Below, in pieces: positions 23,611-55,326 of a stretch of 64,000 bases of DNA. The notes beneath the pieces were generated by a model that saw only the letters and a program-made list of their open reading frames with translations, was not told the DNA's origin and ran no database searches. A program made the position numbers and the translations under genes. This stretch comes from Fibrobacter sp. UWB10 (GTDB lineage: Bacteria > Fibrobacterota > Fibrobacteria > Fibrobacterales > Fibrobacteraceae). The stretch lies in the NCBI RefSeq assembly GCF_900182935.1, contig NZ_FXUE01000006.1:1-64000 (forward strand). The letters are read 5' to 3'. How positions within the stretch are numbered: position 1 is the first letter of the stretch; each line of letters starts with the position of its first letter.

Positions 23611-24507
23611 TTAAATTTCTAAGTCGGCGGAGTAGACGGTTTCGATAGTGCCGTCGTCGCATTTGAACAACAGGCTTCCATCATCTTGCATGTCAAGAAT
23701 GGAGCCTGTTTTTTTGATGGCGCCTGAGCCGCTGTCGCGATTTTCGTCGGTGCAGTGATTGTTGACGATAATGGTGCCCCGTGCGCCGATGAACTGGTCC
23801 ATGCGCTTCCAGGCGGCAACCCACGGGCGAATCCCGAAGGCTCGGAACTGCCCAATCGCGCGTTCCAGATTTGCAATGAGCATTTGCAAGAGTCTTTCGC
23901 GATTGATGTTTTGACCGCAGATGTCTTTCAGTGTTGTGACCGCGCGGCCCAGGTAGGCGTAATCTAGCGGACTGCTGTTTACGTTGATGCCCACTCCCAT
24001 GCTGACCGCTGGCTTCCTTAAGTCATGCTGACGCAGGTCAGCATCGGCTTTTTGTGTCGGAACCATAACGATCTCCGCCAGAATTCCGCAGAACTTGCTT
24101 TTCCCGCACAGAATATCGTTCGGCCATTTGACGGTGACTTTCCCGATGTTCTTGTTCCCGCGGCCTTGCGCGTTGGATTCGTCTTGCAGGCTTTTGAATA
24201 CTTCGGCAAAGGTAAGCGCTGCTACCTGCGTGATTTGCGGGGCAGATGCAAGCGGGATTCCGTCGAGTGGAATCAGAATGTTGAAGTAAAGGTTTAATCC
24301 GGCGGGCGATGCCCACGTGCGCTCATGACGGCCGCGCCCGGCTGTTTGCGTGTCGGCGACAAATAAGGTGCCGGGCGCAATTTCGCCTGCGGAGGCTCGG
24401 GCCTTCATTAGGCTATGCGTGCTTTCGAGGCTGTCAAAAAGAAATGCGGGCGAATTTCCGAAACCGCTGAGTTTCCAATCGCAGAAAGATTTTTCGAGGG
24501 AAAACAT
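23611..24507 (-). CDS. birA: Biotin protein ligase BirA, no DNA-binding domain (298 aa)
   Basis: BirA activates biotin with ATP and attaches it to carboxylase carrier domains. Motifs: TAGRGRHERTWASPAGLNLYF (in part GRGRHERTWASP, adenylate loop), KWPNDILCGKSKFCGILAEI and MGVGINVN. There is no N-terminal winged helix, so it is a class I ligase and not a repressor. A ~12-residue insertion (about QKADADLRQHDL) separates the ILAEI strand from MGVGIN. It is encoded by a palindromic repeat also found after azlD. It starts directly after the stop of the upstream secreted-protein gene, so the two share a transcript. Confidence 0.93.
   Translation of the reverse strand: MFSLEKSFCDWKLSGFGNSPAFLFDSLESTHSLMKARASAGEIAPGTLFVADTQTAGRGRHERTWASPAGLNLYFNILIPLDGIPLASAPQITQVAALTFAEVFKSLQDESNAQGRGNKNIGKVTVKWPNDILCGKSKFCGILAEIVMVPTQKADADLRQHDLRKPAVSMGVGINVNSSPLDYAYLGRAVTTLKDICGQNINRERLLQMLIANLERAIGQFRAFGIRPWVAAWKRMDQFIGARGTIIVNNHCTDENRDSGSGAIKKTGSILDMQDDGSLLFKCDDGTIETVYSADLEI
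24021..24056. repeat. Palindromic dispersed repeat, copy in frame inside birA
   Basis: The core ATGCTGA...TCAGCAT (arms 24025-24031 and 24038-24044) is preceded by AGTC and followed by a GGCTTTTTG tail. The same arrangement with one or two changes occurs at 38901. The length is 36 bp, a multiple of three, so birA stays in frame. Confidence 0.75.
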
Positions 24508-28174: not shown

Positions 28175-30706
28175 ATGAAAATTTCTAGAATCGTTAATCT
28201 TTTTGGCCTTACGGTGCTTGCCGCAGGGTTTATTTCTATTTCTTCTGCTGCCGTTACTCCGACCCGCGTTGGCCCGGTGAGCCAATACGGCCAGCTGCAG
28301 GCTGGTAAGAATTCGGATGGTCACGGTCGTATCTATGGCAGTTGCAAGGGTGTGACCGCCGGGAACGAAGTTGCTGTGCAGGGCATGAGTCTCTTCTGGA
28401 GCATGGCTAGCGGTAATGAAGGTCCGGCTTATTGGAACGGTGCAACGATTTCGGGACTTGTTGAAAAACAAAATATCCAATTGATTCGTGGTCCTGTCGG
28501 TGTTGATGGCGACTGGCAAAATGGAAACGGAAACTATTTTACGAATACGAATTTCCATAGGAATTTAATGGATTCGGTGGTAACGGCCGCCATTAAAAAC
28601 GATATCTATGTGATTATTGATTTCCATAGTCATTGTGCAGAACAGATTACGAGTAACGCACAGTCGTTCTTTAGCTATATGGCTGAAAAATGGGGCGGCT
28701 ATGACAATGTGATTTTCGAAATCTACAATGAGCCCAAGAACAATTGTTCTGACAGCTGGTTTGACCTGAGCGGAGCACAAAACTACTGGAAAGAAAAAAT
28801 TGTCCCGTATGCAAAAACGATTATCAAAACCATTCGCACTTATTCCGACAACCTGATTGTGGTGGGAACTCCATACTATGATCAGTATACAAATGCGGCT
28901 CTTGTTGAACCGCTCAATGATGCTAATGTGGCATATTCGTTCCACTACTATGCGGGTGATGACCCGTATCGTCACAAGACTGATGACCAGGGTGCTAGAG
29001 CCGAAAAGGCGATGCAAGGCGGACTTTCTGTCTTCGTGACCGAATGGGGTAATTCTGCGCCGAGCGGCGATGGTGGTTTTAATAAAGATTATAGCAGCAC
29101 TTGGTATCAGTGGATGACCAAAAATCAGCTGTCAGGTGCAAACTGGTCTGTATCGAATAAGAATGAAACTGCTTCCTATTTTAGTGGTGGCGCTTGGAAT
29201 TATTCGGAAAGCGGTAAATGGGTAAATGAAAATGTCTTTGCTCCGATTCGTAATCAGGTGTATACTGCCTGCTCTGCAACGCCTGCGTCATCTAGCTCCA
29301 GCGTAGCCTCTTCTTCCAGTTCTGTTCCGTCTAGCTCTAGTGTGAAGCGCGTGACCGTCTTTGAACTCACTAGTGGTAATGCGAACCAGACCGTTATTGC
29401 TGGCGATTCTATTAATCCAATTGTCTATCGCTTTAACGACAATGTGGTTGGTCTTAAATTGTCTGGCCTTCCGAAAGGCTTTGGTAGCGTACTTGATACG
29501 AGTGCTAGAACGTACTCCATTAAGGGTGCCTCTGAAGAATCCTTGCGCGATCATGAGTTTACCTACACGGTGGCTGTGACCGGAGTTGATTCGAATACGA
29601 CTGCAACGGGTAAGATTACCGTCAAGCATAAGCCTGTTACGACATCGATCGAAGTGGTGGAAAATGCTTCTCAGACTGTTGTTGCCGGTGACTCCATTTT
29701 GCCGATTGTATTCCGCTATCAATATTTGGATTCTATTGCGGCGAGCGGCCTTCCCGAAGGAACCATCAACTTGCAGATGGATAAGTCTACGAAGACGATT
29801 ACGCTTGCCGGTGCCGTCAAGGAAACCCTCCGTGACCATGAGTACACTTTGAAGCTGGATATCTTTGGACCGGACAACAATGCCTCTGCTACAGCGAAGG
29901 TGATGGTTGTGGCGCCTAAGTCCAGCAGTTCCGTGGAGTCCTCAAGCTCTGTCGTATCCAGCTCTAGCGAAGCATCCTCCAGCTCTGAAGAAGTTTCTAG
30001 CTCTAGTGCGGAATCTTCTAGTTCCGTCGAATCTTCTTCTAGCGAAATTTCTAGCAGCTCTGTTGAATCCTCGAGTTCTCAGCCGAAGTCGTCAAGCAGT
30101 TCTGTTGTGTCCTCCAGTTCTGTGCCGGAATCTTCTAGCTCTGAGCCGGAATCGTCCAGCTCCAGTGTCGAATCTAGCTCCAGTGTTGAAGAATCTAGCA
30201 GCTCCTCGAATGTCGATGTGTTGGTGGTTGGCAGCGTAGAACAGCTTGCGGTGCCAAACGGCAAATTTGAAGAAATCGTGTTCCGGAATGTGGTAACGGC
30301 TGTTCGCAATACTTATCACTTGCATTTCGTGACCATGGCGCAGTCCGGAAATGAGTATGTCGTTTCCGCAACTACGGTGCCGGACTACTTTAGGCCTGGC
30401 GAGTATGCGGACACCTTGACTATCAATGGTGAAAAGTATGAAATCAAGCTTACCGTAACCGAACAGACGACCTTTGCCGCAGCATCTGTGACAAGCCCGG
30501 TTCTGCTGATGGTGGAAAACCGCACGCTCCATGTGTCGGGTGCTGAAATGGTCCGTCTAGACGTGTTCGACATGCAGGGGCGCCCGGTGGAAAGCTTTAA
30601 GCAGGTAAAGGGCTCTGTAAGCCTCGAAAACCTTCGTCAGGGCAACTATATCGTGCGCGTGAGAGCAGGCTCTAACAGCCTAATTCGCCGAATTTCGATT
30701 AAATAA
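28175..30706 (+). CDS. GH5 family endoglucanase with poly-Ser linkers and T9SS-like tail (843 aa)
   Basis: This is a secreted cellulase of glycoside hydrolase family 5. The signal peptide covers about residues 1-25. The catalytic domain is about 30-365, with acid/base Glu186 in IYNEP and nucleophile Glu290 in VTEWGNS; HSH at 151-153 and HYY at 257-259 are typical of the active site. A Ser linker (370-390) follows, then two similar beta modules (about 394-485 and 490-580, each with NxxQTVxAGDSIxPIV and a LRDHEYT motif), a long Ser/Glu/Val linker (582-678), a third related module (about 680-765), and a C-terminal sorting domain (about 775-843: VRLDVFDMQGRPVESF, LRQGNYIVRV) like those of type IX secretion substrates. 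Surface location on cellulose is inferred. Confidence 0.94.
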   Translation: MKISRIVNLFGLTVLAAGFISISSAAVTPTRVGPVSQYGQLQAGKNSDGHGRIYGSCKGVTAGNEVAVQGMSLFWSMASGNEGPAYWNGATISGLVEKQNIQLIRGPVGVDGDWQNGNGNYFTNTNFHRNLMDSVVTAAIKNDIYVIIDFHSHCAEQITSNAQSFFSYMAEKWGGYDNVIFEIYNEPKNNCSDSWFDLSGAQNYWKEKIVPYAKTIIKTIRTYSDNLIVVGTPYYDQYTNAALVEPLNDANVAYSFHYYAGDDPYRHKTDDQGARAEKAMQGGLSVFVTEWGNSAPSGDGGFNKDYSSTWYQWMTKNQLSGANWSVSNKNETASYFSGGAWNYSESGKWVNENVFAPIRNQVYTACSATPASSSSSVASSSSSVPSSSSVKRVTVFELTSGNANQTVIAGDSINPIVYRFNDNVVGLKLSGLPKGFGSVLDTSARTYSIKGASEESLRDHEFTYTVAVTGVDSNTTATGKITVKHKPVTTSIEVVENASQTVVAGDSILPIVFRYQYLDSIAASGLPEGTINLQMDKSTKTITLAGAVKETLRDHEYTLKLDIFGPDNNASATAKVMVVAPKSSSSVESSSSVVSSSSEASSSSEEVSSSSAESSSSVESSSSEISSSSVESSSSQPKSSSSSVVSSSSVPESSSSEPESSSSSVESSSSVEESSSSSNVDVLVVGSVEQLAVPNGKFEEIVFRNVVTAVRNTYHLHFVTMAQSGNEYVVSATTVPDYFRPGEYADTLTINGEKYEIKLTVTEQTTFAAASVTSPVLLMVENRTLHVSGAEMVRLDVFDMQGRPVESFKQVKGSVSLENLRQGNYIVRVRAGSNSLIRRISIK
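29930..30207 (+). repeat. Serine-rich linker coding repeat
   Basis: This stretch of alternating TCT/AGC/TCC serine codons interspersed with Glu, Val and Pro encodes (S4-5)-V/E-x repeats. The varied synonymous codons suggest selection on the peptide against exact DNA repeats. Confidence 0.85.
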
Positions 30707-38594: not shown

Positions 38595-38902
38595 GAGATT
38601 ACTTCCTGTTCTTGCTTGTGATGGCGGGCGTTACCTATTTGCTGCGTGCGGTGCCGTTCGTACTCTTGAAGGGCAAAATCAAGAGTCGTTTCTGGCGATC
38701 CTTCTTGGCGTATGTGCCGTACACGGTGCTTGCTGCCATGACCGTGCCTGCGATTCTCTATTCGACCGACAGTAAGCTTTCGGGTGCCTGTGCCCTGGTG
38801 GCGGCTGTTGTTGCTTCGCTCCTTGGCCTTGGCTTGGTGGGTGTTGCCGTGGTCGCTTGCGTGACTGTCCTCGGCGTCGACGGCATCTTGATGCTTTTCT
38901 AG
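38585..38902 (+). CDS. azlD: AzlD-family exporter subunit (105 aa)
   Basis: This small protein with three to four helices carries the AzlD family opening (YLLRAVPFVLLKGK, with the R-x-x-P motif). Its start, with GAGGAGG just upstream, overlaps the azlC stop. The AzlC/AzlD pair forms the exporter. A palindromic dispersed repeat starts at its stop codon and may act as its transcription end. Confidence 0.9.
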   Translation: MHLRDYFLFLLVMAGVTYLLRAVPFVLLKGKIKSRFWRSFLAYVPYTVLAAMTVPAILYSTDSKLSGACALVAAVVASLLGLGLVGVAVVACVTVLGVDGILMLF

Positions 38903-38936
38903 TCATGCTGAACTTGGTTCAGCATCAGCTTTCTTG
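38901..38936. repeat. Palindromic dispersed repeat, copy after azlD
   Basis: AGTC then ATGCTGAA, a short loop, TTCAGCAT and CAGCTTTCTTG match the element in birA at 24021-24056 nearly base for base. The hairpin plus pyrimidine tract could serve as a terminator. Confidence 0.78.
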
Positions 38937-40442: not shown

Positions 40443-42608
40443 ATGAAAAGATGTTTGTTTGTTATGGCTGGTGCCGCTTTGGCGTGTTCTGCGGCATGGG
40501 CTGGCCCAAAGCAATTCAATGTGGTGATTCCGACTGATATGGAGGAATGGCTTGCTGCCGTTCCGATGATTAGCTTGGATAGTGGCAAAACGGCTGTGCC
40601 TATGAGGGCTGATCCGAATCGGTGCGGCTGGTTCTCGTATACGTTTGCCGACGGCCCGGTTTCTGACAACGTGTTTCTTCTGAGGGATGACGATGTAGAT
40701 CGCGAAGACATGCTCGGCATGAATGGCAACTGGGAAACGGCAGCCTCACCGACGCCGATTCCTTTGGGTATGGTTTTTGAATTGTATCAGAGTGATACTT
40801 TGTACTTTGTGCCCGATGAGGCGCAAAAGACAAACGAAAGTGGTTGGTACGAAACCGCTTCTCTCGTTGCTGGTATCGAAGGTGTTTGTTCTTATGTAGT
40901 TTCGACGATTATTTACGATTCTGACGCTAATTTGCACCCGGCTTTCTCTTGTTATTCTGCGGGTGGTGAAGGTTGCCAATTGGGTGCTCAGGATGTTGCT
41001 GCCAAGGATGCCCTGGCTGCAGTTAATAACTGTATTGGCGTGACTCCGGGAGTTGTAGAAACTACGTTGGATCCGACAACGAAAAAACCGAAATTGTCTG
41101 CTGAGGGCAAAAAGTGCTTTATTGACGAAAAGTACTTTAACCAGCTGTTCAATTATACTGAAAATGTAAACGAAAAGACTTGCTATGACCTGCCGCTGTC
41201 GCGTACAGAGAATGGTTGGTGGTCCTTTAATTCAGATTTCTTCACTTCGCCCAATACAAAGACTCAGGGTGGGTACTTCCCAGTAGAAGGTAAAGTTGAT
41301 GAAGGGACTTTGCGGGCTGATCCTAATCAAACTCCTCTTGCTGTCGCACGAACTCTGTACGATGCGGAGGGCCCGGTTTTCTATGGTCCTTCGCTTAGAA
41401 AACTCGATTCTCTTGAGGGTGTTCCCGTATTTGATTTGTTGTGCAAAGGCCCGGGTTGGAGCAAGGGACGCGATTGCTCTGGACAGTTTGATAATGGTGC
41501 AACCACCGAAGAATTTGTTCAAGCTGCTCTTAAGTTGCCGACAACACGTCCGGACAACTGTGTGCTAGGCTGGGGCTGTCCTGAAGACGCCCCCGAAGGG
41601 TGGCAATTCTATGAAGAAGGTACGGAATCCCCGATTCAGGGAGCTTATGTACCCGCATCAGGAAATTCCTATCGCTGGACAGGCAAGCGCAACCACCATT
41701 TCTGTCAGGAAACGCACACCAAGTTTATCCAGAAGCCGGGACTCCGCTTTAATGCTCGCGGTAGCGATGACATTTGGGTGTTTATCGACAATAAGTTGGC
41801 CATTGACTTGGGTGGCGTCCACTTGGATGCTCCGGGTTATGTAGACCTCGATGAGTTCGAAGGCGCAAGCGGTAAGCTGGTGACGGGTGAGCAGTACGAC
41901 TTGGATATCTTCTTCTGCGATCGACGCACCACTATGAGCAATCTTCAGATTAGAACGAATATCTTTATGGCGGAAATGGAGAAGAGTGCTATTTCGACAA
42001 AGGCAAAAAGGAATACGTCAAATCCGTCTGAAACCGAATATTGCATGTGTTATGCGAAAACGGGCGGCGGAGACTGCTCCTCTGCAATTGCCGGTGCTGC
42101 GGAAAAGTCCTATTGCTGCAATAATCCTGAAATGACTACGTTGCCGATTTCGTATACGTTGGTTATTGGCTCAAATAGCAATGGCACTGCTGTAGACGGC
42201 TTTGATAAAATTTCTACTCCGGGCGTTTATAAGGGCGGCATAGACCTTACGAATATCGCTTCGCCCAAGGTTGATCTGTCTAAGATGGCTTTGCCGGGTG
42301 GCCGTTACACTCTGTTTGTAACTATCGAAGGTAAGACCAAGAAAGTAGCCTCTTTCCGTATCGGTACTGATGCAATCAAGCCTGTTGCCCATATTGCAGG
42401 CGTAAGCTTTACTGTGAAGAACAATCTGCCGCAGGCCCTCACGATTACTGCGACCAAATCTGCAGCCAAGTTTGCGGTTATGGATTTGCAGGGTCGTGTG
42501 GTGCGTCAGGGCGTTACCGCTGGTGCTGAAACGGTGGTGCCGAACCTCAAACCGGGTTCGTACATCGTGAAGGTGGCCCGCGAAACCCGCCGCGTGAATG
42601 TCCGTTAA
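40443..42608 (+). CDS. Fibro-slime domain surface protein 1, with T9SS-like tail (721 aa)
   Basis: Signal peptide 1-20 (ending AAWA). The first part (about 24-145) is a beta module also present in the other two paralogues (MISLDSGKTAVPM, CGWFSY, LLRDDDVDREDM, NGNWETAA). The fibro-slime domain (about 146-510) follows, with the PA14-like core DDIWVFIDNKLAIDLGG (442-458) and FFCDRRTTMSNLQIRTNIFM (490-509). Then come a Cys-rich stretch, a small beta segment and a C-terminal sorting domain (about 650-721: FAVMDLQGRVVRQG, LKPGSYIVKV). Fibro-slime proteins are known from Fibrobacter cell-surface fractions that bind cellulose. Its stop overlaps that of the convergent MATE gene. Confidence 0.9.
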   Translation: MKRCLFVMAGAALACSAAWAGPKQFNVVIPTDMEEWLAAVPMISLDSGKTAVPMRADPNRCGWFSYTFADGPVSDNVFLLRDDDVDREDMLGMNGNWETAASPTPIPLGMVFELYQSDTLYFVPDEAQKTNESGWYETASLVAGIEGVCSYVVSTIIYDSDANLHPAFSCYSAGGEGCQLGAQDVAAKDALAAVNNCIGVTPGVVETTLDPTTKKPKLSAEGKKCFIDEKYFNQLFNYTENVNEKTCYDLPLSRTENGWWSFNSDFFTSPNTKTQGGYFPVEGKVDEGTLRADPNQTPLAVARTLYDAEGPVFYGPSLRKLDSLEGVPVFDLLCKGPGWSKGRDCSGQFDNGATTEEFVQAALKLPTTRPDNCVLGWGCPEDAPEGWQFYEEGTESPIQGAYVPASGNSYRWTGKRNHHFCQETHTKFIQKPGLRFNARGSDDIWVFIDNKLAIDLGGVHLDAPGYVDLDEFEGASGKLVTGEQYDLDIFFCDRRTTMSNLQIRTNIFMAEMEKSAISTKAKRNTSNPSETEYCMCYAKTGGGDCSSAIAGAAEKSYCCNNPEMTTLPISYTLVIGSNSNGTAVDGFDKISTPGVYKGGIDLTNIASPKVDLSKMALPGGRYTLFVTIEGKTKKVASFRIGTDAIKPVAHIAGVSFTVKNNLPQALTITATKSAAKFAVMDLQGRVVRQGVTAGAETVVPNLKPGSYIVKVARETRRVNVR

Positions 42609-43990
42609 TGCAGTTTCTTTAGTTCATGCCAAAGCATGGCCAACCCAATGAAAGCCGCACCTGTGTCGGCAATGGGCTGCGCCATGAATACGCCCTTGAG
42701 TTCAAAGAAGTGGGGCAGTATCAGCAAGAACGGAATAAGTAAAATTACTTGACGACAAGCGTTCAGGAACATAGCCCTGAACGCTTTTCCTGTACCCTGG
42801 AAAAAGTTCCCCGACACCATGCCGAAGGGAATCATAAAGAAGGCTGCCGCAAAAATGCGCATGGCCCAGGCTGAAAGTTTGATAAGTTCGGGGTCTTTTG
42901 GTGCGAAAGGCGTCACAAAGGTTTCTGCCTGCCACATGAGAATGCCCCAAGTCACGAACATAAATCCGCCTGCATAAATGAAGGCAAACTTGAGTGTTTC
43001 CTTGACGCGGTTGTTGAGTCGTGCGCCGTAGTTGTAGCCGATAATCGGCTGTGTGCCGTGAACGAATCCGAGAAGCGGCAAAATGATAATCGAAACGATG
43101 CTGTTGGTGATTCCGAATGCAGAAATTGCCATGTCGCCACCCGAAAGCGCGCCAGTTGTCTTGACGCTGATGTTTCCGTAAGTGGTTAGGCTCCAGGCCA
43201 AAATCGCATTCATCAAGCTGTTGCAAATCTGCATTACAGAAGGCGGCAAACCGAGAATATAAATCTTGCGGACATAGGCGGCGCGCAATTTCATGTGGCG
43301 CCAGCGAATGCGAATAGGTGTACCCTTCTTGATAAAGAATTGCGTAATCAAGGCCGAGGCCACCAGCTGCGAACTGATGGTTGCCCAGGCGGCGCCCTCG
43401 ATACCCCAGTGGAATTTCATGATAAAGAGGTAGTCGAGAATAATGTTCGTGACTGCACCCACGATTTCGCGGAACATGGCCGTTTTGGGGTGGCCCATCG
43501 AACGGATAAAGTGGTTCATGCCGGGGGCGATTGTCTGGAATACAGCACCGCACAGTAAAATGCGCATGTAGCTGCTGGCCACCGGCAAGGTCTGCTCGCT
43601 TGCGCCAAACAGCTTTAAGAGCGGCTCCATAAAGATTTCGCCCAGCGTGAACGCTCCAATTGCCATCAGAATCAGGAGCGAAAAGGAATTGTTCAGAATG
43701 ATGCTTGCCTGGATATACTTCTTTTGCCCGAGGCGGATTGCGAAAAGCGTGTTGCCGCCTACGCCCACCATCATGGACATGGCCATCATGAACAGGCAAA
43801 TCGGGAAGCAGAGCGTGATGCCTGCGATACCGAGACTGCCTACGCCCTGCCCCACAAAGAAACGGTCCACTACGTTGTAGAGGGCGTTTACCAGCATGCT
43901 GATGATCGCAGGAACCGAGAACTGCAAGACCAGTTTCGGGATACTTGCAGAACCAAAGGAATTAAGGCGCTCGGAATTCAGTTTAGACAT
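42605..43990 (-). CDS. MATE-family efflux transporter 2 (461 aa)
   Basis: It has twelve hydrophobic segments and the MATE hallmarks, with YNVVDRFFVGQGVGSLGIAGI (in part) near the N-terminus and GTQPIIGYNYGAR in the middle. Length is normal. It is related to but clearly different from the transporter at 25020-26351. Its start lies 33 nt after the FHA-GGDEF gene stop, so the two could be co-transcribed. There is also a -10-like TATTTT 10 nt before its ATG. Confidence 0.93.
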   Translation of the reverse strand: MSKLNSERLNSFGSASIPKLVLQFSVPAIISMLVNALYNVVDRFFVGQGVGSLGIAGITLCFPICLFMMAMSMMVGVGGNTLFAIRLGQKKYIQASIILNNSFSLLILMAIGAFTLGEIFMEPLLKLFGASEQTLPVASSYMRILLCGAVFQTIAPGMNHFIRSMGHPKTAMFREIVGAVTNIILDYLFIMKFHWGIEGAAWATISSQLVASALITQFFIKKGTPIRIRWRHMKLRAAYVRKIYILGLPPSVMQICNSLMNAILAWSLTTYGNISVKTTGALSGGDMAISAFGITNSIVSIIILPLLGFVHGTQPIIGYNYGARLNNRVKETLKFAFIYAGGFMFVTWGILMWQAETFVTPFAPKDPELIKLSAWAMRIFAAAFFMIPFGMVSGNFFQGTGKAFRAMFLNACRQVILLIPFLLILPHFFELKGVFMAQPIADTGAAFIGLAMLWHELKKLH

Positions 43991-44000
43991 TTCGGCGCCA

Positions 44001-44006
44001 AAAATA
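44001..44006 (-). promoter_or_regulatory. -10-like element (TATTTT) before MATE gene 2
   Basis: The minus strand reads TTCTATTTTTGG, ending 10 nt before ATG 43990. It matches the recurrent motif but with slightly longer spacing. Confidence 0.45.
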
Positions 44007-44023
44007 GAATTTTTCTTTACAAT

Positions 44024-44902
44024 TTAAAAGGCTACCTGATTTCGGCCACCCTCTTTGGCCACATAAAGCAGGCGGTCGCATTCGGCGATCAAATCCTCGA
44101 TTTTGCCGATTTTTTCGCCCTGACGGCTAGCAAGGCCTAAAGAAATGGTCACCGGGATAATTGTGTCTTTCCACGAAAAACGATGGCTTTCCACTGCCGA
44201 GCGCAGGCGTTCGGCGCTCTTTTTGGCGTCTTCGGGCCCAATGCCGCCCAAAAGCAGCACGAATTCTTCGCCGCCATAGCGGGCGAGCAAGTCGGATTCT
44301 CGCTTTTCTTCTTTAAGAATGCGGGCGATTTCTTTAAGAACCATGTCGCCGCACTGGTGACCCCAGGTGTCGTTCACGCGCTTAAAGTGGTCTGCGTCGA
44401 CCATGATGGCATGAACGTAATAGTTGTTGCGGCGGGCCAGAGCGAGTTCGCCGAGGCTTCGGTCTATAAACGTGCGGCGGTTGCTTATCTTGGTCAGCGG
44501 ATCCATGGTCGCGGCTTCGTAGAGCTCGCGGTCAAAAGCTTCTTCGCTTGCGTCCTTGAAGTCAACTTTCAGGACCATTTTTCCGATTTGCAGGCGGTTG
44601 TGGTCTTCGAGCTTACATTCTGTAATCGGGGAGCCGTCGACGAAGGTGCCATTGGTGCTGCCAAGGTCCTTGACTGTTACGTCGACACCGTCGAAGGTGA
44701 CGGCGCAGTGCCTGCGGCTGACCAGTTCGTCATCCAGGCGGATTTCAGCATCTTGCCCACGGCCAAGCACGACCGTTCCTTTTTCGAGCGGTATTTGCTT
44801 GAATAGGTGTTGCGGGTAGAGCACAATCAGATGTGGTCGCATGGGGGCGACGGGTAGCTTGATTGTGTTTCCGCTGGCAATTGTTTGGTCCATGTCCTGC
44901 AT
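44024..44902 (-). CDS. FHA domain plus GGDEF diguanylate cyclase (292 aa)
   Basis: The start is ATG 44902 because CCGGAG lies 5 nt upstream; the GTG at 44908 would abut it. An FHA phosphothreonine-binding domain (about 25-105: VVLGRGQDAEIRLDDELVSRRHC in part; DLGSTNGTFVDG) is followed by a GGDEF domain (about 125-292) with DPLTKISNRRTF, the signature ARYGGEEFVLLL and a typical C-terminal VAKEGGRNQV. GGEEF is an active signature, so it makes c-di-GMP, probably under control of a Ser/Thr kinase (inference). A TATTTT hexamer at 44932-44937 could be its -10, with a ~30-nt leader. Confidence 0.93.
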   Translation of the reverse strand: MQDMDQTIASGNTIKLPVAPMRPHLIVLYPQHLFKQIPLEKGTVVLGRGQDAEIRLDDELVSRRHCAVTFDGVDVTVKDLGSTNGTFVDGSPITECKLEDHNRLQIGKMVLKVDFKDASEEAFDRELYEAATMDPLTKISNRRTFIDRSLGELALARRNNYYVHAIMVDADHFKRVNDTWGHQCGDMVLKEIARILKEEKRESDLLARYGGEEFVLLLGGIGPEDAKKSAERLRSAVESHRFSWKDTIIPVTISLGLASRQGEKIGKIEDLIAECDRLLYVAKEGGRNQVAF

Positions 44903-45087
44903 AAGCACTCCGGTTTGTTTAAAAAAGTAGTAAAATAGCCCCTCTACTCTTGAAAAATTTTCTTTACTGTCTGGTCTGTAGATGCGTAAATTTTCGATTT
45001 TTTAAGGTTTTTATCGTTTGTTTATAACGCTGCCTTTTACGAAACGAAAAAAAAAGTAAAAAATGTTCTTTTTTGAAAAGAAAAGGA

Positions 45088-45093
45088 TAAATT
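45088..45093 (+). promoter_or_regulatory. Probable -10 (TAAATT) of fibro-slime gene 2
   Basis: GGATAAATTT lies 68 nt before ATG 45161. The same TAAATTT at the same relative place occurs before fibro-slime gene 3. The stretch from the FHA gene to here (44903-45087) is AT-rich and shows nothing else. Confidence 0.5.
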
Positions 45094-45111
45094 TACATTG
45101 GTTGTTGGCGT

Positions 45112-45155
45112 CCCAAAAAGGGTCGGTCTTTTTTGGTATGCCCAATTGGAAGGAA
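45112..45155 (+). promoter_or_regulatory. Conserved leader of fibro-slime gene 2
   Basis: The segment GGTCGGTCTTTTTTGG, TATGCCC, and TTGGAAGGAA is shared in order with the leader of gene 3 (50008-50043). GGAAGGAA serves as ribosome site. Confidence 0.55.
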
Positions 45156-45160
45156 GTCAT

Positions 45161-48100
45161 ATGAAGAGAAAAACAGAGATTTCTTGGTGGAAATGGGTCA
45201 TATTGGGCTGTATGCTTTTTGCTGGTGTGCAAAACGCTGTTGCCGCTTGTGCAGGTACGTTGCATTTTAAGAAACCCGATGATTGGCCAAGAAACTTTTA
45301 TATCGCCATGAACAATATCGATGCTCTTGTCACAGCGTCGTATTATAACGCTGCTACAGGGTATTACGAATACGATTTGGCCGATGCTGGTGGCGAAAAC
45401 ATCGAAACCTCATTTGCCCTTGAATCGTCAAAGTCGGCTCCGATGAATTTTATCCTGTCCAATGTATGGAACGGGATTTCTCAGAACGATCAAAGCTATC
45501 CGAAAAACAATCGTAATATTAGGTGCCCAGGCGCAGGAAAAGACGTTTATGTGCTAGAAAATCCGAAAAAAGCGGGTACCACATTGGTGACAAACACCGC
45601 ACCTGATATCAAGTATTTCTATGTCTTGGTTCCCGATGATGAATCCTGGAAGTCTACAGTTCCGATGTGGTCTCCTGACTCTACCTTTGCTAATGCTCAA
45701 CCGTTCAAGGTTGATCCGAATATGTGCGGATGGTATTATGCTGTTTGGATGGATGAACCGTTGCCGGAAAGATTGATCATCTTTAAGGATGATGACGTGG
45801 ATTTGGAAGAGGCTATTGGCATGAATGGTTGGGAAGCTGAAGTTGTGGTTCCGTTCCCGATGGATATGTTCTTTAGCATGTTTGAGGAATCTGATAGGGT
45901 TTATTTTATTGCAGACTCCGCAAAAGCTGAAGAAGCTGGCCTTACGACAACGTTCGTGGCTGTTGATCCGCAAATTGAAGGTAACTGCACGTATAAGTTG
46001 GCAGCTTTCCTTTACGATACCGATGCCAGTATGCATGGTGCCTTTACGTGTGATGCTTATCCGCGTGTGGCTTCGAACGGATGCTATTCGCCAACGGCGA
46101 AGTATAACTATCCGGGAGCTGGCGGCGACAATAGCGTGCCTTGTATCGGTGTAACCACGGGAATCGTTAACAGTATTTTGGACCCGACGACGAAAAAACC
46201 GACTTACAATACGTCAAGCGGGTGCTTTGTTTCTGCAGAAGCGTTCAATGTCATGTTTGAAGAAACCGCTGGTGTTAACGTAAAGCATTGCCGCGATGTG
46301 GTCTTTAGCCAGACCAAGGACGGTATGTGGGAATATGACAGCTATAATGAACCTGCGGGTGCGTTTACTCCGTTGAATGACCTTGCTACGGATGTGACAT
46401 GCACTGGCTATTGTAAACAGGCTGCTACCCCTAGACCCGGCAAGGGCAATGTGCGCTATGGTGTGGGCGAACAGGGTAAAACCGCGGCCCAGAATGGAAT
46501 TTCACGTAAGGCACAACTGGCTCTTGGTAATGTCACGGACTGGTCTGCTATTGAACCGACAACCGGTTTGCCCTATATCGACTTGTATCCGGTTTCTGAT
46601 GGCGAATTCAGCAGTGGTACCGAACCCAATGTTTATGACAATAGCACGTGGGATTTGCGTATCGAGAACGATAATAACCAGATGTTCTGCTTTGAATCTC
46701 ACGCCAACTTTACTTACCGTTCCGGCATGCAGTTCATGTTCCGTGGTGACGATGACATTTGGGTGTTTATCGATAACAAACTTGCGGTGGACCTTGGCGG
46801 AACCCATTTGGCTGCTCCTGGTTACGTAAAATTGGATACATTGAAGGGGGCTTCGGGTAATCTGCTTACTCCTGGTGAAACCTACGATATCGATATCTTC
46901 TTCTGTGACCGTCGTACCGACATGAGTAACGTGCGTATCAAGACGAATATGTATATCCAGCAGAAGACGGCTATTTCGGCCAAGGGTAAGAAGGTTCCGG
47001 GAAATCCGTCTGAAACAGATTACACCCTTTGCTTTACAAGAACTGGTGACGGTTCTTGCGATGCGGCTGCTGCCGGTATCGGAGAAAAGAAGACTTATTG
47101 CGGAGATTCTCTTGCGATGGAAATTGCCGCGGGCCGAATCAAGGCCACTTACACACTTGTTAGTGGTAAGAAAAACGGTGAAAATGTGGTTCCCGGATTC
47201 GATAACGTTTCTACGCCGGGTATCTATAAGGGTGGTATTGACTTGACGAATTTTGGTTTGCCTAAGATTGATAGGTCGAAGCTTTCTTTGGCAGGCGGTT
47301 ATTACACCTTGTTCGTGAATATTGAAGGTAAGTCTGCAAAGGTGCTTAGCTTCAAGGCCTCGGGTGAAGTGGATGTCATTTATAAGAATGGCCGCTCTTA
47401 TGTGTTTGACGATGAAAGTGGTGATCAGACACAGACGGGTGTGTATAATATACAGACCTCTGCTATGGGTGGCGAATACGTCCCGGTTTATATTTCGAAT
47501 GTGGCGCTTAATGGCGATTCTACGGAACTTGAAATTTATCCGGAAGATGCGGTTGAAATGCCCTATACGCTAACTTATACAGCCCCGATGGAAATTTACA
47601 CCAAGGAAATTGATGCAACTACGGGTCAAGAAGGGTATAAGAGAATCAATCCGGCTGTGCCACGTAAGATTGGTGCTTCTGGCGTCGATACGGTTTATGC
47701 ACATGTTGATATGCGAGATTTGCAGTCGCCGATTACGCCGTTTAACATTAGTGTTGCCGGTAGAGATCAGAATGCACTGACCATCAACTTCTACTTGCCG
47801 CAGATTACGTTCATCAGAGAGATTCCGGAAGATGGCGTTTCTATTGATCCTGTGATGGGCCAGGATTCCTTACCGGATGGTTCTTACGCAGAAAATTGGG
47901 TTGGCTCAATTAATGTGATGTATTTGGCTGTGCTGAAACCTGTTGGCAATGATAATTATGTTCCGTGTTTGGAAGAATGTAATGGAATCTATGTCTACAT
48001 GGGTTCTGAAACATCTCCGAAGATAGACTTTATTCCTGAAGATCCCGTGTATTTTGTAAATGGATACGCTACTATCTCGGTGCGCTCGTTGACCAAATAC

Positions 48101-49765
48101 CGTTGGGATAGGGATCCTTCTATTCATAGGCCGGCAACGATTGTTGCTCAGTACAATGACTATGTGAAGGCTGTTTATTATCCGATGTACTTCCGCGATC
48201 CTCCGGTACCGTTCCCGGTCTTGGCCGACGTGTTCGATGCTCACGGTTCTTTGCCGACTATGGAACATCGTATTCCGGCTCCGTACTTTAGTATGGATCA
48301 GGAATATCTGGATGGTATCGGCGACTCTGTTGCTGTGTACTACGATCGTCGAATCCATAAGGATTCCTTGCCGACAAAGATTTGTGTGATGTGGGATTCC
48401 ACTACGGCTGAACCCCATAATCCGTACGCAGAAGGTCTTTCTACAATGCCGAGGGATTCTGCAATCACTTGTAACGCCCTTGTTCCGCTCGATGCAAGCA
48501 ATATTGATTGCTCTGCCCCGTCGGATAGTGGCTATTGCACCAATGTGATTATGGTGGGTGGTTTGAAACTGTCCGAAGAAGTAAAGACGTCTGGTATTGG
48601 TAAGGTTCATTCCTTCGCCGAATTCGAAGATAAGGGTAAAAAGGTCAGACAGGGCTTTGATGGGGCTCTTACGGACCGTATGGCTCCTGTCCCGTTGCGT
48701 GCTGAAGTGCGTACCCTTAAGGATGGCGATCAGTTGTCTGACCTTGACAGCCTTGTGGTGGTGATGTCTGAACCGGTTAAGCTTGTTGCGACGACAAATA
48801 AGAAATCGGCTTTGGACTTCTACCTGAATTCTGCAATTGAATTGGATGAATCTTCTCGTTATGTATCTGCTTTGGCTGGTGCCACTTCGATTGTTACTGC
48901 TCAGAATGAGCCTTTTGTGAGTGCAACAGATGGCTTAGGCCGTATCAGGTACTTGTACTTGCGCGGTGGTGTTTCTCCGCATGTGGGTGACTATGTGCGC
49001 TTGAGCGGTAATCTGACGACGGTATTCTGGTCCGATACCGCAGATATTAAACCGGCGGGCACCAAAGCCGATTCGCTCCGCTCTGCTGCGGACGCCTCGT
49101 ACCATTGGAATTCTCCGACTGCTTACAATGAAACATTGCGCTTGCCGTCGATGTGGATTCAGGTGACTGGCGATGCTGAAATTGCCGTGAATGAAAACAA
49201 GTTTGCGTCTACATCGAATGCTCCGGCCGGAGAAAAGGTGCCGGCGGTATCGGTGAATGTGTATCGTACGTCTATGACCAAGGCTGAAATCCTTACGGCT
49301 GAAAATGGAAGGCCGGGTCATATTGTGAAGGCTGACATGTATGCCTTGTACAATGGTCTTTCCGATGAAGATCGCAAGAAAGTTGCTCCGCAGGATATCT
49401 ACTTCTACTACGAAGTCCAGTATTTCACCAACCTGGGTAACTTCGTTGCTAGCAAGACTCAGCGTATTTACTGCGATGACAGTAAGAATACTGAAATCGA
49501 TCCGGTGACGAAGCAGCGCATCCAGTACTTTAATGGAGGCCTCTGCACCGATGCTGGCATGGACCGCAACTTCTTTATCGGTTGGAACATGCGCTCTCAA
49601 AAGGGACGTGTGGTTGGCACGGGTGCCTATATTGTTAAGCTCAAGTCTTATGTGAAACTTGGTTCTTCTGGTAAGGAAGCAAAACAAGAAAGCACTTCTG
49701 TTTGGGGTGTCAAGCGTTCTCCGAAAGCGGACACTCGCTACATGAAGAACTTGACAGCTAAATAA
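45161..49765 (+). CDS. Fibro-slime domain surface protein 2 (1534 aa)
   Basis: The start at ATG 45161 is preceded by GGAAGGAA; the extension from 45098 is leader. A long N-region signal ends in GVQNAVAA. Modules: N-terminal beta segment, a second beta module shared with paralogues 1 and 3 (CGWYYAVWMDEPLPERLIIF), and a fibro-slime domain whose core DDIWVFIDNKLAVDLGG is near residue 530. A long C-terminal half has repeated beta modules (FRDPPVPFPVLADVFDAHG, APYFSMDQEYLDG), then a FlgD-like end (FIGWNMRSQKGRVVGTGAYI) and a short tail WGVKRSPK. There is no T9SS-like tail of the kind seen in paralogue 1. Colinear with the protein at 50050 over essentially its whole length. Confidence 0.9.
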   Translation: MKRKTEISWWKWVILGCMLFAGVQNAVAACAGTLHFKKPDDWPRNFYIAMNNIDALVTASYYNAATGYYEYDLADAGGENIETSFALESSKSAPMNFILSNVWNGISQNDQSYPKNNRNIRCPGAGKDVYVLENPKKAGTTLVTNTAPDIKYFYVLVPDDESWKSTVPMWSPDSTFANAQPFKVDPNMCGWYYAVWMDEPLPERLIIFKDDDVDLEEAIGMNGWEAEVVVPFPMDMFFSMFEESDRVYFIADSAKAEEAGLTTTFVAVDPQIEGNCTYKLAAFLYDTDASMHGAFTCDAYPRVASNGCYSPTAKYNYPGAGGDNSVPCIGVTTGIVNSILDPTTKKPTYNTSSGCFVSAEAFNVMFEETAGVNVKHCRDVVFSQTKDGMWEYDSYNEPAGAFTPLNDLATDVTCTGYCKQAATPRPGKGNVRYGVGEQGKTAAQNGISRKAQLALGNVTDWSAIEPTTGLPYIDLYPVSDGEFSSGTEPNVYDNSTWDLRIENDNNQMFCFESHANFTYRSGMQFMFRGDDDIWVFIDNKLAVDLGGTHLAAPGYVKLDTLKGASGNLLTPGETYDIDIFFCDRRTDMSNVRIKTNMYIQQKTAISAKGKKVPGNPSETDYTLCFTRTGDGSCDAAAAGIGEKKTYCGDSLAMEIAAGRIKATYTLVSGKKNGENVVPGFDNVSTPGIYKGGIDLTNFGLPKIDRSKLSLAGGYYTLFVNIEGKSAKVLSFKASGEVDVIYKNGRSYVFDDESGDQTQTGVYNIQTSAMGGEYVPVYISNVALNGDSTELEIYPEDAVEMPYTLTYTAPMEIYTKEIDATTGQEGYKRINPAVPRKIGASGVDTVYAHVDMRDLQSPITPFNISVAGRDQNALTINFYLPQITFIREIPEDGVSIDPVMGQDSLPDGSYAENWVGSINVMYLAVLKPVGNDNYVPCLEECNGIYVYMGSETSPKIDFIPEDPVYFVNGYATISVRSLTKYRWDRDPSIHRPATIVAQYNDYVKAVYYPMYFRDPPVPFPVLADVFDAHGSLPTMEHRIPAPYFSMDQEYLDGIGDSVAVYYDRRIHKDSLPTKICVMWDSTTAEPHNPYAEGLSTMPRDSAITCNALVPLDASNIDCSAPSDSGYCTNVIMVGGLKLSEEVKTSGIGKVHSFAEFEDKGKKVRQGFDGALTDRMAPVPLRAEVRTLKDGDQLSDLDSLVVVMSEPVKLVATTNKKSALDFYLNSAIELDESSRYVSALAGATSIVTAQNEPFVSATDGLGRIRYLYLRGGVSPHVGDYVRLSGNLTTVFWSDTADIKPAGTKADSLRSAADASYHWNSPTAYNETLRLPSMWIQVTGDAEIAVNENKFASTSNAPAGEKVPAVSVNVYRTSMTKAEILTAENGRPGHIVKADMYALYNGLSDEDRKKVAPQDIYFYYEVQYFTNLGNFVASKTQRIYCDDSKNTEIDPVTKQRIQYFNGGLCTDAGMDRNFFIGWNMRSQKGRVVGTGAYIVKLKSYVKLGSSGKEAKQESTSVWGVKRSPKADTRYMKNLTAK

Positions 49766-49786
49766 AGTCCTGTTCAGAAAAGTTTA

Positions 49787-49820
49787 GAAAGGGATGGAGT
49801 TAATCCATCCCTTTCTTGTA
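49787..49820 (+). terminator. Intrinsic terminator of fibro-slime gene 2
   Basis: GAAAGGGATGGA (49787-49798) pairs with TCCATCCCTTTC (49804-49815). Confidence 0.92.
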
Positions 49821-49974
49821 TGAAATGGATTTGTTGAAAACTTAATTTTACACTAGCTGTTTTTCTTGTGACAAAACTCACTAGGTTTCGTTTTTTTAAG
49901 TTTTTGGACACAAAATGGATGCTTTTTTTCCAAAAAATCACAAAAATAAAATTGGCTTTTCGCTTAAAAAAGAG

Positions 49975-49980
49975 TAAATT
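49975..49980 (+). promoter_or_regulatory. Probable -10 (TAAATT) of fibro-slime gene 3
   Basis: AGAGTAAATTTG, with TTGGCT 17 nt upstream as a possible -35. It gives a ~65-nt leader, like gene 2. Confidence 0.5.
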
Positions 49981-50007
49981 TGAGGGCGGTCTATGGGATA
50001 TCGTAAA

Positions 50008-50043
50008 GGTCCGTCCTTTTGTTATGCCCTGTTGGAAGGAAAA
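50008..50043 (+). promoter_or_regulatory. Conserved leader of fibro-slime gene 3
   Basis: GGTCCGTCCTTTTGT, TATGCCC and TTGGAAGGAA match the gene 2 leader (45112-45155) at the same distance from the -10. Confidence 0.55.
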
Positions 50044-50049
50044 CCATCG

Positions 50050-53000
50050 ATGGAAACTAAAATGAAAATGAATAAAATTAACCTCCTTGTTAAGTGGGCG
50101 TTGGGTGTTTGTCTGCTTTTCGTTGGGGCGCAGAGCGCATTTGCGTTAAACGGACAGGTTTGTGCCGAAGGTACCGTTTATCTCGATGCTCCTAAGAGTT
50201 GGACCACGGCTTATGCTGCCGGTGGTGGTAAGTTTGTTCCGTTTACAAAACAAGCTGACGGATGGTGGACTGTTAAGTCTTCTCTCATTGCCCAAGGACA
50301 GGATACATCGTTCTTTATCGCTTCGGTCAACAACGACTACTGCCAGTCTGCCGGCATTACGAATTCTGAATTTGACAAGACATCTTGTAATCAGCAAGAT
50401 GGTATTCCTTGTAGCAGAACAGGTGACCTCTACATTTTTGCAGATCCGACTAATCCGGAAAAAACCGTGGTTAGCGAAAATCCGCCTAACGCAAAGTATT
50501 TCTTTGTGATGATTCCGCCTGATATGGACGAATGGATGTCGGCTGTGCCGATGCTTAGTTTGGATGGTGGTCAGACCGGTAAAGCTATGACCGCTGTTGA
50601 TGGCATGTGCGGCTGGTATTCCTATGTATTCTTTAATGAAGAAATCACGGATAATGTGCTTCTTTATCGTGATGATGACCTTGACCGTGAAGACATGATT
50701 GGTGTGAACGGCAACTGGGAAACTGCTGCATCTGCTCAGCCTATCCCGCTCGCATCTGTTTTCACTATGGAAGACTCTTTGTTCTTTGTGCCGGATGAGG
50801 GACAGAAAACTACACCTGATGGCTACTATTACCATAAGGCCGATGTTGAAGGAATCGAAGGTAACTGTTCTTATACTATGGCTGCAGTTATTTATGATAC
50901 TGATGCGGACTTGCATCCGGCGTTCTCTTGCTGGTCTCAGGGTGGTGAAGGTTGCCAGGCTATGAGTGGTACCGCTGCTCAGGGTGTTGACAAGACTACC
51001 GCAATTGCAGCTATTAATGCCTGTATCGGTGTGACTCCGGGCATTGTTGAAAGCACTTTGGATGAAACTGTTCCGCAGAATCAGAGAAAACCGAAACTGA
51101 GTTCTGCTGGTAAGAAGTGCTTTATGGACGAAAAGTATTTTAACCAGTTGTTCAACTATACTCAGGGCGTAAACGAAAAGAGCTGCTTCGATATGCCGTT
51201 CCATCGTTCTACTGATGGTAAGTGGGAATTTGACTCTGACTTCTACACTAGTCCTGGTCTTGAAGTGCAGGGTGGCTTCTATCCGGTTGAAGCTTCTACT
51301 GACTCGTCCATTCTTGCTGCGGATCCCCTCCAGACTCCGGTTGCTAAGGCCCGTACTAAGCGTATGGCCGAAGGCCCGGTGTTCTATGGTCCGGCTCTTC
51401 GTGAAAATGATCCTGCAGAAGGTATTCCCAATATCGATGTTCTTTGTAACGGCCCGGGTTGGGATGGTGGTATTAAGTGTGATGGTCTCTTTGCCGATGG
51501 CGAAGGAACGGAAACTGTTGTTAGAGAGCATTTTGGCCTTGGTAACGATAACACCGGCTGTATCTTCGGATGGAGTTGTCCGAATGATGCTCCGAAGGGA
51601 TGGGCTTTCTTTGAAGATGGTACTGAAACTCCGGCAGAGGCTGGTGTTGGTGGCCAGGTTAACGGTTCTCCTCGCTGGACTTCCAAGACGGGCCGTAACC
51701 AGCAGTTCTGCTTTGAATCTCATGCCAAGTTCACCCATAAGCCGGGTCTGAAGTTCAACTTCCGTGGTGACGACGATATTTGGGTGTTCATTGATAACCA
51801 GTTGGCTGTGGACCTTGGTGGTACTCACTTGGCTGCTCCGGGTTATGTGAATCTCGATAAGTTCAAGGGTAAGAGTGGTGCGCTTGAAGCTGGTAAACAG
51901 TATGATCTGGATATCTTCTTCTGCGACCGTCGTACGACCATGAGTAACGTGCGTATCAAGACGAACATGTATATCCAGCAGAAGACTGCTATCGAAGCAA
52001 AACCGCAGAAGACGGGTTCCTCTGAAAAAGCTTATGAAATCTGCTATACCCAGAGTGGTGATGGCTCTTGCGCTGCGGCCATGACGGGTGATGAAGAAGA
52101 AAAGATCTATTGTGGCGATGATCTTAAGAATTCTAGTTTCAGCATTTCCTATACACTCGTTCAGGGCAATTTGGCTTCTTCTCCGGCAGTACCTGGCGTA
52201 GAAAATGTGTCTAGCGGTGTTCATAAGTGCGGTATCGATTTGACGAATCCGGCTAACCCGAAGATTGATCCTGAAGCTATTTGTGGCTTGGGTGGCGGCC
52301 GTTACACCTTGTTCGTGAACATTGAAGGCAAAACGAAGAAGGTCTACTCATTCCGTAGAAGTGGTGAAGTGGACGTTGTCTATGCAAACGGTGATGCTAT
52401 GGACTCTAACCAAGTTAAGATTGGCAGCTATACGATTGAGACCACTGCTATGGCGGGTACGAAAGTGCCGGTTTATGTATCTTCTTTGGCTCCTGTTGAA
52501 GGTACCGGTAAAGTTGAAATTTATCCGGACGATGCTGTGGGTGTTCAGTACACTTTGCAGGCTACCGATAACAGTGGCGTAGCGACAAGGCTTATCGAGT
52601 TCTGTGCCTATGATGGTGGTGATTCTTGTAAGCCGATTGGTTCTGGTACCCCTCGTACAATTGGAGCAAGTGGTGTCGATACGGTTTATGCAAAAATTCT
52701 TATGGATAATATGCAGTCGGACTACCAGACGTTTAAGATTAGCGTGTCTGGTCGACCGAATGCTCTTGCTGTTAGCTTCTACTTGCCGAAGATTTCGTTT
52801 ATCGAAGCGATTCCGGAAGAAGGTGCCGATGCAAAGTCTGTAACGGGTCAGAAAAAAGAAGCTGATGGTTCTTACGAAGAATTCTGGGTCGGCTCGATTT
52901 ACGATCTGTACCTGGCTGTATTGAAGCCGAATGCTGATGGAAAATCCTTTAGCCCGTGCTTGCAGGAATGTAATGGTCTCAAGATTCATAAGGGTAATTT

Positions 53001-54765: not shown

Positions 54766-54787
54766 TCTAGCGACTAGATTTGAAAAA

Positions 54788-54816
54788 GGGAACGGATAAA
54801 ATCCGTTCCCTTTTTG
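54788..54816 (+). terminator. Intrinsic terminator of fibro-slime gene 3
   Basis: GGGAACGGAT and ATCCGTTCCC form a 10-bp stem with a 3-nt loop and a T run. A smaller ATCTAG/CTAGAT palindrome sits just before. Confidence 0.95.
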
Positions 54817-54817
54817 C

Positions 54818-54823
54818 TATATT
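54818..54823 (+). promoter_or_regulatory. -10 element (TATATT) of the SPOR gene, leaderless type
   Basis: It directly follows the T run of the terminator and ends 6 nt before ATG 54830. Confidence 0.65.
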
Positions 54824-54829
54824 GTTGGT

Positions 54830-55231
54830 ATGCGAAAGATTTTATTTGCTTTGAGCCTTTGCTCCTTAGCCTTTGCCGCTGAACCGACTGATTTGGATTC
54901 CCTTTTCCGCGGCAAGGAATACAAACCTGTTTTGAGCGCTTCTCTGCGAGACAGCTCCAAGAGCGATGCCGTTCCAGGAAAGACTGCTGCGAAAGCCTCC
55001 AAGTCCGATGGTTACTATATGCTTCAGTTTGAATCTGTAGCCGACTTTGATGCGGCTCAGCGCCGTCGTGCACAGCTTTCTGCAAGTACCGGATATGCAA
55101 TTCAGGTCGTATTCGATGCCCCGTTCTACAAGCTCCGTGGCGGTGGCTGGGGTAACAAGAAAACGGCCGAAGACAAGGCTCGCGAATTGTCGGCTTACAA
55201 CATTAATGCCTTCGTCGTCAAGGTCAAATAG
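54830..55231 (+). CDS. SPOR-domain periplasmic protein (133 aa)
   Basis: Signal peptide MRKILFALSLCSLAFA. The C-terminal ~75 residues (YYMLQFESVADFDAAQRRR ... YKLRGGGWGNKKTAEDKARELSAYNINAFVV, quoted in parts) match the SPOR fold, which binds denuded glycan strands at division sites. A short Ser/Lys-rich linker precedes it. There is no membrane anchor, so it is a free periplasmic SPOR protein. It is transcribed from its own leaderless-type promoter and ends in a bidirectional terminator. Confidence 0.85.
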   Translation: MRKILFALSLCSLAFAAEPTDLDSLFRGKEYKPVLSASLRDSSKSDAVPGKTAAKASKSDGYYMLQFESVADFDAAQRRRAQLSASTGYAIQVVFDAPFYKLRGGGWGNKKTAEDKARELSAYNINAFVVKVK

Positions 55232-55270
55232 CTGTAAACTTGAATGCCTTTGGCATCTTTTGAATAATGA

Positions 55271-55304
55271 AAAAGTTCCACCCAATGACGGGTGGAACTT
55301 TTTG
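55271..55304. terminator. Bidirectional terminator between SPOR gene and DUF4011-like gene
   Basis: AAAAGTTCCACCC (55271-55283) and GGGTGGAACTTTT (55290-55302) form a 13-bp palindrome between two convergent genes. Confidence 0.95.
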
Positions 55305-55326
55305 CTTTAATCTTATTTGGGCTGAG

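Follow-up and report, generated by a model that had tools for sequence, protein, structure and literature searches.

Fibrobacter BirA and TilS loops carry recurrent in-frame hairpins, probably copies of a dispersed CGTC-type REP

Introduction

CGTC-tagged REPs were described by Di Nocera, De Gregorio and Rocco (2013; PMC3733652) as palindromes with an unpaired (C/T)GTC tag, an 8–9 bp stem starting with AT and a loop of 4–5 nt. They are heterogeneous in their stems, mainly intergenic with some intragenic copies, and have no dedicated transposase. In the same paper RPE-4 and RPE-6 are equated with CGTC-4 and CGTC-1 respectively, REPs at about the same site are given for Xanthomonas recB only, with no recurrent genus-wide use of a loop, and Fibrobacter is unmentioned in the text. 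RPEs measure 105–146 bp (PMC2229807), and both REPs and RPEs are already known within genes (PMC3733652, PMC2229807). A search of the open-licence literature found no paper on palindromic repeats of Fibrobacter and likewise no match for VIPAKAGI, one of the inserted peptides discussed below. As far as this literature shows, the presence of such an element in Fibrobacter, its recurrent occupation of BirA and TilS loops across the genus, its antisense bias and the exchange of hairpins in place are new.

The DNA analysed here (the window) is a stretch of 64,000 nucleotides from Fibrobacter sp. UWB10 (contig NZ_FXUE01000006.1, positions 1 to 64,000). The host genome, 3.48 Mb in 10 contigs, is designated G000; other genomes and individual loci are cited by G and L numbers.

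Results

The gene birA (23611..24507, minus strand), present in single copy in G000, encodes a biotin--[acetyl-CoA-carboxylase] ligase of 298 amino acids that is without an N-terminal repressor domain and matches TIGR00121 in a profile search (E=1.7e-35). As the initial annotation had proposed, a palindromic unit lies within this gene and is read through in frame. From the window sequence, ATGCTGAC-GCAG-GTCAGCAT is a perfect palindrome at 24025–24044 (8-bp stem, 4-nt loop) preceded by a GTC tag (GTCAT begins at 24022), giving a core, GTCATGCTGACGCAGGTCAGCAT, at 24022..24044 on the plus strand within the surrounding sequence AAGTCATGCTGACGCAGGTCAGCATCGGCTTTTTG. The hairpin is antisense to birA and is translated as KADADLRQHDL. 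Core and T-rich tail (CGGCTTTTTG) together form an inserted stretch at approximately 24014..24056 (plus strand; exact ends uncertain), about 42 nt standing where the loop of G003 has 18 nt, a net gain of 24 nt (comparison L055/G003). The conserved native codons V-S-M adjoining the insert (window 24000–24008 and around, minus strand) read GTCAGCATG, which equals one arm of the inserted palindrome, possibly through microhomology or by coincidence.

The segment ILAE..GVGIN, in which the insert provides residues ~151–163 of a β-hairpin turn, is 34 residues long in the host protein, 26 in the 89% identical and palindrome-free orthologue of G003, 21 in short forms of the same genus and 22 in E. coli BirA, where the equivalent strand–turn–strand is ILVELTGKTGDAAQIVIGAGIN. 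The host loop is longer than these by 8, 13 and 12 residues respectively, which bears out the earlier figure of about 12 residues added between the ILAE strand and MGVGIN. As for the accompanying claim that the length is a multiple of three, the net gain does keep the frame, but 36 bp does not mark a natural boundary: tandem copies elsewhere are spaced by 41–42 bp, of which 41 cannot be divided by three. Divisibility by three of the net length reflects selection and is not built into the unit. An AlphaFold2 model with a fold like that of known ligases places the inserted residues in the turn that joins strands 137–150 and 164–174, with a mean pLDDT of 90 overall and 61 in block 151–160. Outside the loop, dN/dS was 0.05–0.09 against four relatives, and BirA is therefore under normal purifying selection; in the loop it was ~1 between two genomes of the same species, a value that rests on very few changes. 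Inspection by eye of another variable loop of BirA, at residue ~110, showed no obvious palindrome.

The only other GTCAT hairpin of the window, GTCATGCTGAACTTGGTTCAGCAT at 38902..38925 (plus strand; sequence reading), lies directly after azlD and has the form GTC-ATGCTGAA-CTTGG-TTCAGCAT, the G of its tag (38902) doubling as the final G of the TAG that terminates azlD. Seven other 5-mers run in the same way as GTCAT gave 0–1 hairpins each. The two copies had rightly been taken as near matches; they are of the same kind but of different sub-types, the azlD-side copy having an 8-bp stem and a 5-nt loop (or 9 and 3) and the birA copy 8 and 4. Elsewhere in the window, similar stretches ~5 kb apart at 40500–56000 (families D2–D20) are apparently tandem paralogous large genes, and a coding region at 29951–30202 contains serine-rich repeats; some serine-rich linkers of G063 overlap CCTCG-type hairpins (L218, L232).

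Genome-wide, the pattern CATGCTGA(N2-14)TCAGCAT gave 24 matches in G000 including overlaps (~19 distinct places), against one for the reversed control. A broad pattern with the stem free to vary gave 66 matches in G000 and 182 in G063 (two control matches in each), and the CCCGC version alone was present in 75 of 80 Fibrobacter genomes, where its control had no match. The unit is thus repeated, and non-repetition is excluded; the core was also sought in viral contigs, with no match. In a census of the copies in fetched loci, architecture was compiled for 48 distinct copies of G000 and 70 of G063. Stems were 8 bp long in 38/48 and 59/70 and 8 or 9 bp in 45/48 and 67/70, stem length being the only independent test of the stem format because the AT start was built into the search pattern. 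Loops measured 4–5 nt in 37/48 and 58/70; the rest were mostly of 3 nt on a 9-bp stem. The base preceding GTC was T or C in 40 of the 48 copies of G000 and in all 70 of G063; the exceptions, with A, are both window copies and six others. All CATGCTGA..TCAGCAT copies of G000 have GT ahead, although GT was absent from the search pattern. Self-complementary stems of one format include GCTGA, GCCGA, CCCGC, CCCGA, CCTCG and CCGG, and the tails are CAG, CTC and CGG in G000 and CTT and CTC in G063. Neighbours within 60 bp of each other had the same orientation in 4/4 cases in G000 and 8/11 in G063 (small numbers).

By greedy gene calls, most copies of both genomes are intergenic, in unidirectional or convergent gene pairs, and a minority lies in genes. 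In G000 the latter fall in birA, in genes for a DEAD/DEAH-box helicase and an APH-family kinase, near the N-terminus of an NfeD protein, twice in the C-terminus of a 159-aa protein and in a serine-rich linker. These repeats and in-gene copies support the view, first put forward for birA, of a dispersed REP/RPE-like element able to colonize coding genes, with the type to be amended: it is CGTC-tagged and not the classical GTAG/RAYT kind, and most of its copies lie between genes.

Across 77 Fibrobacter orthologues the length of the BirA turn was highly variable. A perfect 8-bp hairpin occupies it in 11 of them, or in 15 when imperfect or interrupted ones are included, and about five types can be distinguished: ATGCTGAC with a 4-nt loop (G000, G090 and G091), ATGCTGAA with a 5-nt loop (G071 and G016), ATGCCGAA (G009 and G064), CCCGC (G063, G069, G073, G004 and G066) and CCCGA (G065, G086 and G089). 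BirA proteins of other phyla are without the insert residues, and the objection that these might be shared across phyla fails. The carriers are dispersed over a BirA tree from which the loop was left out, with at least 10 gains or losses, two kinds of event that are inseparable by count, and an origin of the carriers in one clade was rejected (p-AU 7.5e-33). None of 300 loop shuffles reached the observed stem score. Over 30 birA loci, eight hairpins were found in 1.8 kb of loop versus none in 88 kb of flank, counts uncorrected for shared ancestry. The birA turn is a recurrently used site in Fibrobacter, not a one-off. In G083 (L128, a MAG contig) birA is without the MGVGIN region, one end of the deletion lying within the palindrome and the frame being broken, either by deletion through the repeat or by an assembly error.

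The tilS orthologues were taken up because an in-frame copy was seen in tilS of G003. Perfect hairpins, one to three each and all antisense to the gene, were present in 22 of the 50 fetched loci, in three loops after residues 119, 159 and 251 (numbering of the G000 protein); the open frames (L336–L385) range from ~340 to 604 amino acids, the longest (604) in G005. The G000 copy has a mutated tag and encodes KADADIHQHN. At the second site there is a clean filled/empty pair, G003 having GTACGAGAC next to AACATTTAC and G091 an additional 30 nt, ATTCCCGATCAAGTCGGGAATGATAATTTC. Comparison of the whole gene, not of the loops, with its flanks gave 34 hairpins in 63 kb versus none in 88 kb, again uncorrected for shared ancestry. 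Other peptides, LDPSTPLHSAQDD, GVAGLASEAPLEG, LKGSEATDPIPH and GVAGLASEAPLEGVMEDRATGCNQGETSPT, recur in the same TilS loops of many species; LDPSTPLHSAQDD, GVAGLASEAPLEGVMEDRATGCNQGETSPT and LKGSEATDPIPH look like further repeat families.

Palindromes of the BirA turn are antisense to the gene in 14 of 15 cases, the sole sense one being that of G063, and this bias, together with that of all tilS hairpins, is not predicted by simple neutral landing. Stop codons are not its cause, since the CCCGC core, on reading of its sequence, leaves every one of the three sense frames open but just two of the antisense frames. The bias is not universal: several in-gene copies of G063 are sense, some of them in serine-rich linkers, and for intergenic copies between unidirectional genes the ratio of opposite to same orientation is 10/12 in G000 and 7/23 in G063. 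In several places the flanks are kept and the hairpin is different. In birA, G069 and G089 share downstream GATGACAARTGAAAACGCGGGGAT, and G004 and G086 share GATGACAATGCAACAAGATGCG; at one intergenic site (L002/L035) the hairpin differs between G000 and G003; and in tilS of a single species (L338 of G000, L348 of G090) the flanks are the same and the hairpin loop, short in G000, is ~20 nt larger in G090. Such differences in place are compatible with slippage, with renewed insertion at one point or with gene conversion among the copies.

A possible transposase was sought with PF01797 in 80 genomes and found in 27; G063, which has the most copies by the broad pattern (182 matches) and a completeness of 100, has no PF01797 match. 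The only Y1 transposase gene of G000 (L155, G000:C2:304741-305097) is a lone IS200-type gene, whose product scores 146 bits against NF033573 (IS200; cut-off 55) and 35 bits against NF047646 (REP_Tyr_transpos; cut-off 80), and no hairpins were found around it in a 3.4-kb locus. An origin from a RAYT system was rejected, given the absence of PF01797 from G063, the solitary IS200-like character of the host Y1 gene and a tag that is GTC and not GTAG.

Discussion

We consider it probable that the birA insert is a copy of a dispersed CGTC-type REP, whose in-gene survivors lie in tolerant, frame-keeping loops, those of BirA and TilS having been filled repeatedly. The element is a hairpin of ~23 bp in which the GTC tag is fixed and the self-complementary stem varies, and a Fibrobacter genome contains from some tens up to almost two hundred copies. 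These copies would spread by a non-autonomous route, with no RAYT-type transposase associated, and would mostly land between genes; within genes they would survive only where the frame is preserved overall and the added peptide comes to lie in a tolerant loop, such as the ILAE–MGVGIN turn of BirA or the three loops of TilS, which have been filled time and again. Once in place, a hairpin might be exchanged for one of another type, partly deleted or tandemly duplicated. The data establish that the element is repeated, that it is read in frame, that the loops are occupied recurrently, that the remainder of BirA is under purifying selection and, by the model, that the insert lies in a loop; we infer both the neutrality of the insert and this mode of movement. 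An enzyme or intermediate for the movement was sought and none was found, which counts against the explanation, as do the strong antisense bias within genes and the divergence of tail and pair orientation from the published CGTC families.

The scattered carriers could also descend from one or a few ancestral BirA insertions, followed by many lineage losses and by conversion of the hairpin types through ectopic gene conversion. The flanking remnants that neighbouring species share around different hairpins (G069/G089 and G004/G086), like the differing hairpins of G000 and G003 at one intergenic place, are what such a history would leave. We regard it as unlikely, however, as loops in the second deep branch of the genus are short and show no remnants, the hairpin of G063 points the other way, a plain loop is common to G003 and G042 while the related G000 carries the insert, and tilS offers a clean filled/empty pair. 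Insertion might instead prefer certain sites for their local sequence, their transcription state or the secondary structure they form, so that the loops of BirA and TilS would be true hot spots. The dense occupation of these loops against hairpin-free flanks of 88 kb at each gene, an antisense orientation that is consistent in birA and tilS and mixed between genes, and the identity of the native V-S-M codons to a REP half-arm would all suit this proposal. Yet several sequence types occur at the site, among them CCCGC types that do not match the half-arm, a target motif shared by the sites could not be established, and selection alone can give the contrast between loop and flank, because the flanks hold conserved genes where insertions would be purged; true hot spots thus seem distinctly improbable.

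Repeated reoccupation of one loop would also be expected if the inserts were selected, the hairpin acting in the mRNA (stability, pausing) or the peptide tuning BirA at the loop equivalent to ELTGKTGDAAQ of E. coli, which lies near the BirA dimer interface. That most orthologues are without a palindrome and otherwise well conserved, that the peptide is wholly different by species and frame (IPAFAGMT, ADADLRQHD, VIPAKAGI) and that dN/dS in the loop is near 1, on its very few changes, make selection very improbable. A chance palindrome or an assembly artefact, in favour of which there is only the shortness of the unit, has a negligible probability: the same unit is present in G090, an independent genome of the same species, and in G091, no loop shuffle reached its stem score and the genome-wide controls gave 0–2 matches.

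There is some, albeit small, chance that a strand-specific process of insertion and exchange of transposase-less palindromes preferentially strikes the BirA loop and the three TilS loops, swapping whole hairpins in place. If so, these loops would be serially rebuilt from mobile hairpins, and their length and sequence would change at a pace well beyond that of point mutation. Across dozens of related species the same BirA and TilS loops are either occupied or vacant, which constitutes a natural replicated experiment. It allows two questions to be tested: by what means REPs that have no transposase move, and whether the peptides they add ever serve a purpose or are simply tolerated. For annotation, the differences in length among Fibrobacter BirA and TilS proteins should be read largely as repeat insertions, not as differences in domains.

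Among known systems, GTAG REPs with RAYT (TnpA-REP) transposases resemble the Fibrobacter element as short dispersed palindromes with an unpaired tag, but they are marked by GTAG and by a RAYT gene with the repeats on its flanks, neither of which was found here. Rickettsia RPEs (RPE-4/RPE-6 and the longer RPE-1) share with it the in-frame insertion of palindromic repeats into conserved protein genes, found here in birA, tilS, the helicase, the APH-type kinase and NfeD. They differ in their length of 105–146 bp, against a core of 23 bp that adds 8–13 residues, and in their host, and the tie to RPE-4/RPE-6 runs through the equation made in PMC3733652, not through a sequence match; protein-colonizing palindromes, best known from Rickettsia, are thereby extended to a gut genus of another phylum. 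The likeness to CGTC-tagged REPs covers tag, stem length, loop, stem variety, the intergenic majority and the intragenic copies, as well as having no associated tyrosine transposase, G063 likewise being without PF01797. On the other hand, CGTC-tagged REPs have a three-base tail that is mostly CCA (CAG/CTC/CTT in Fibrobacter), pairs that are predominantly head to head (rare in Fibrobacter) and a (C/T)GTC tag, where both window copies have AGTC. Because tail and pairing differ, we call the Fibrobacter element a variant of the CGTC-tagged REPs and not a member of one of their four published families.
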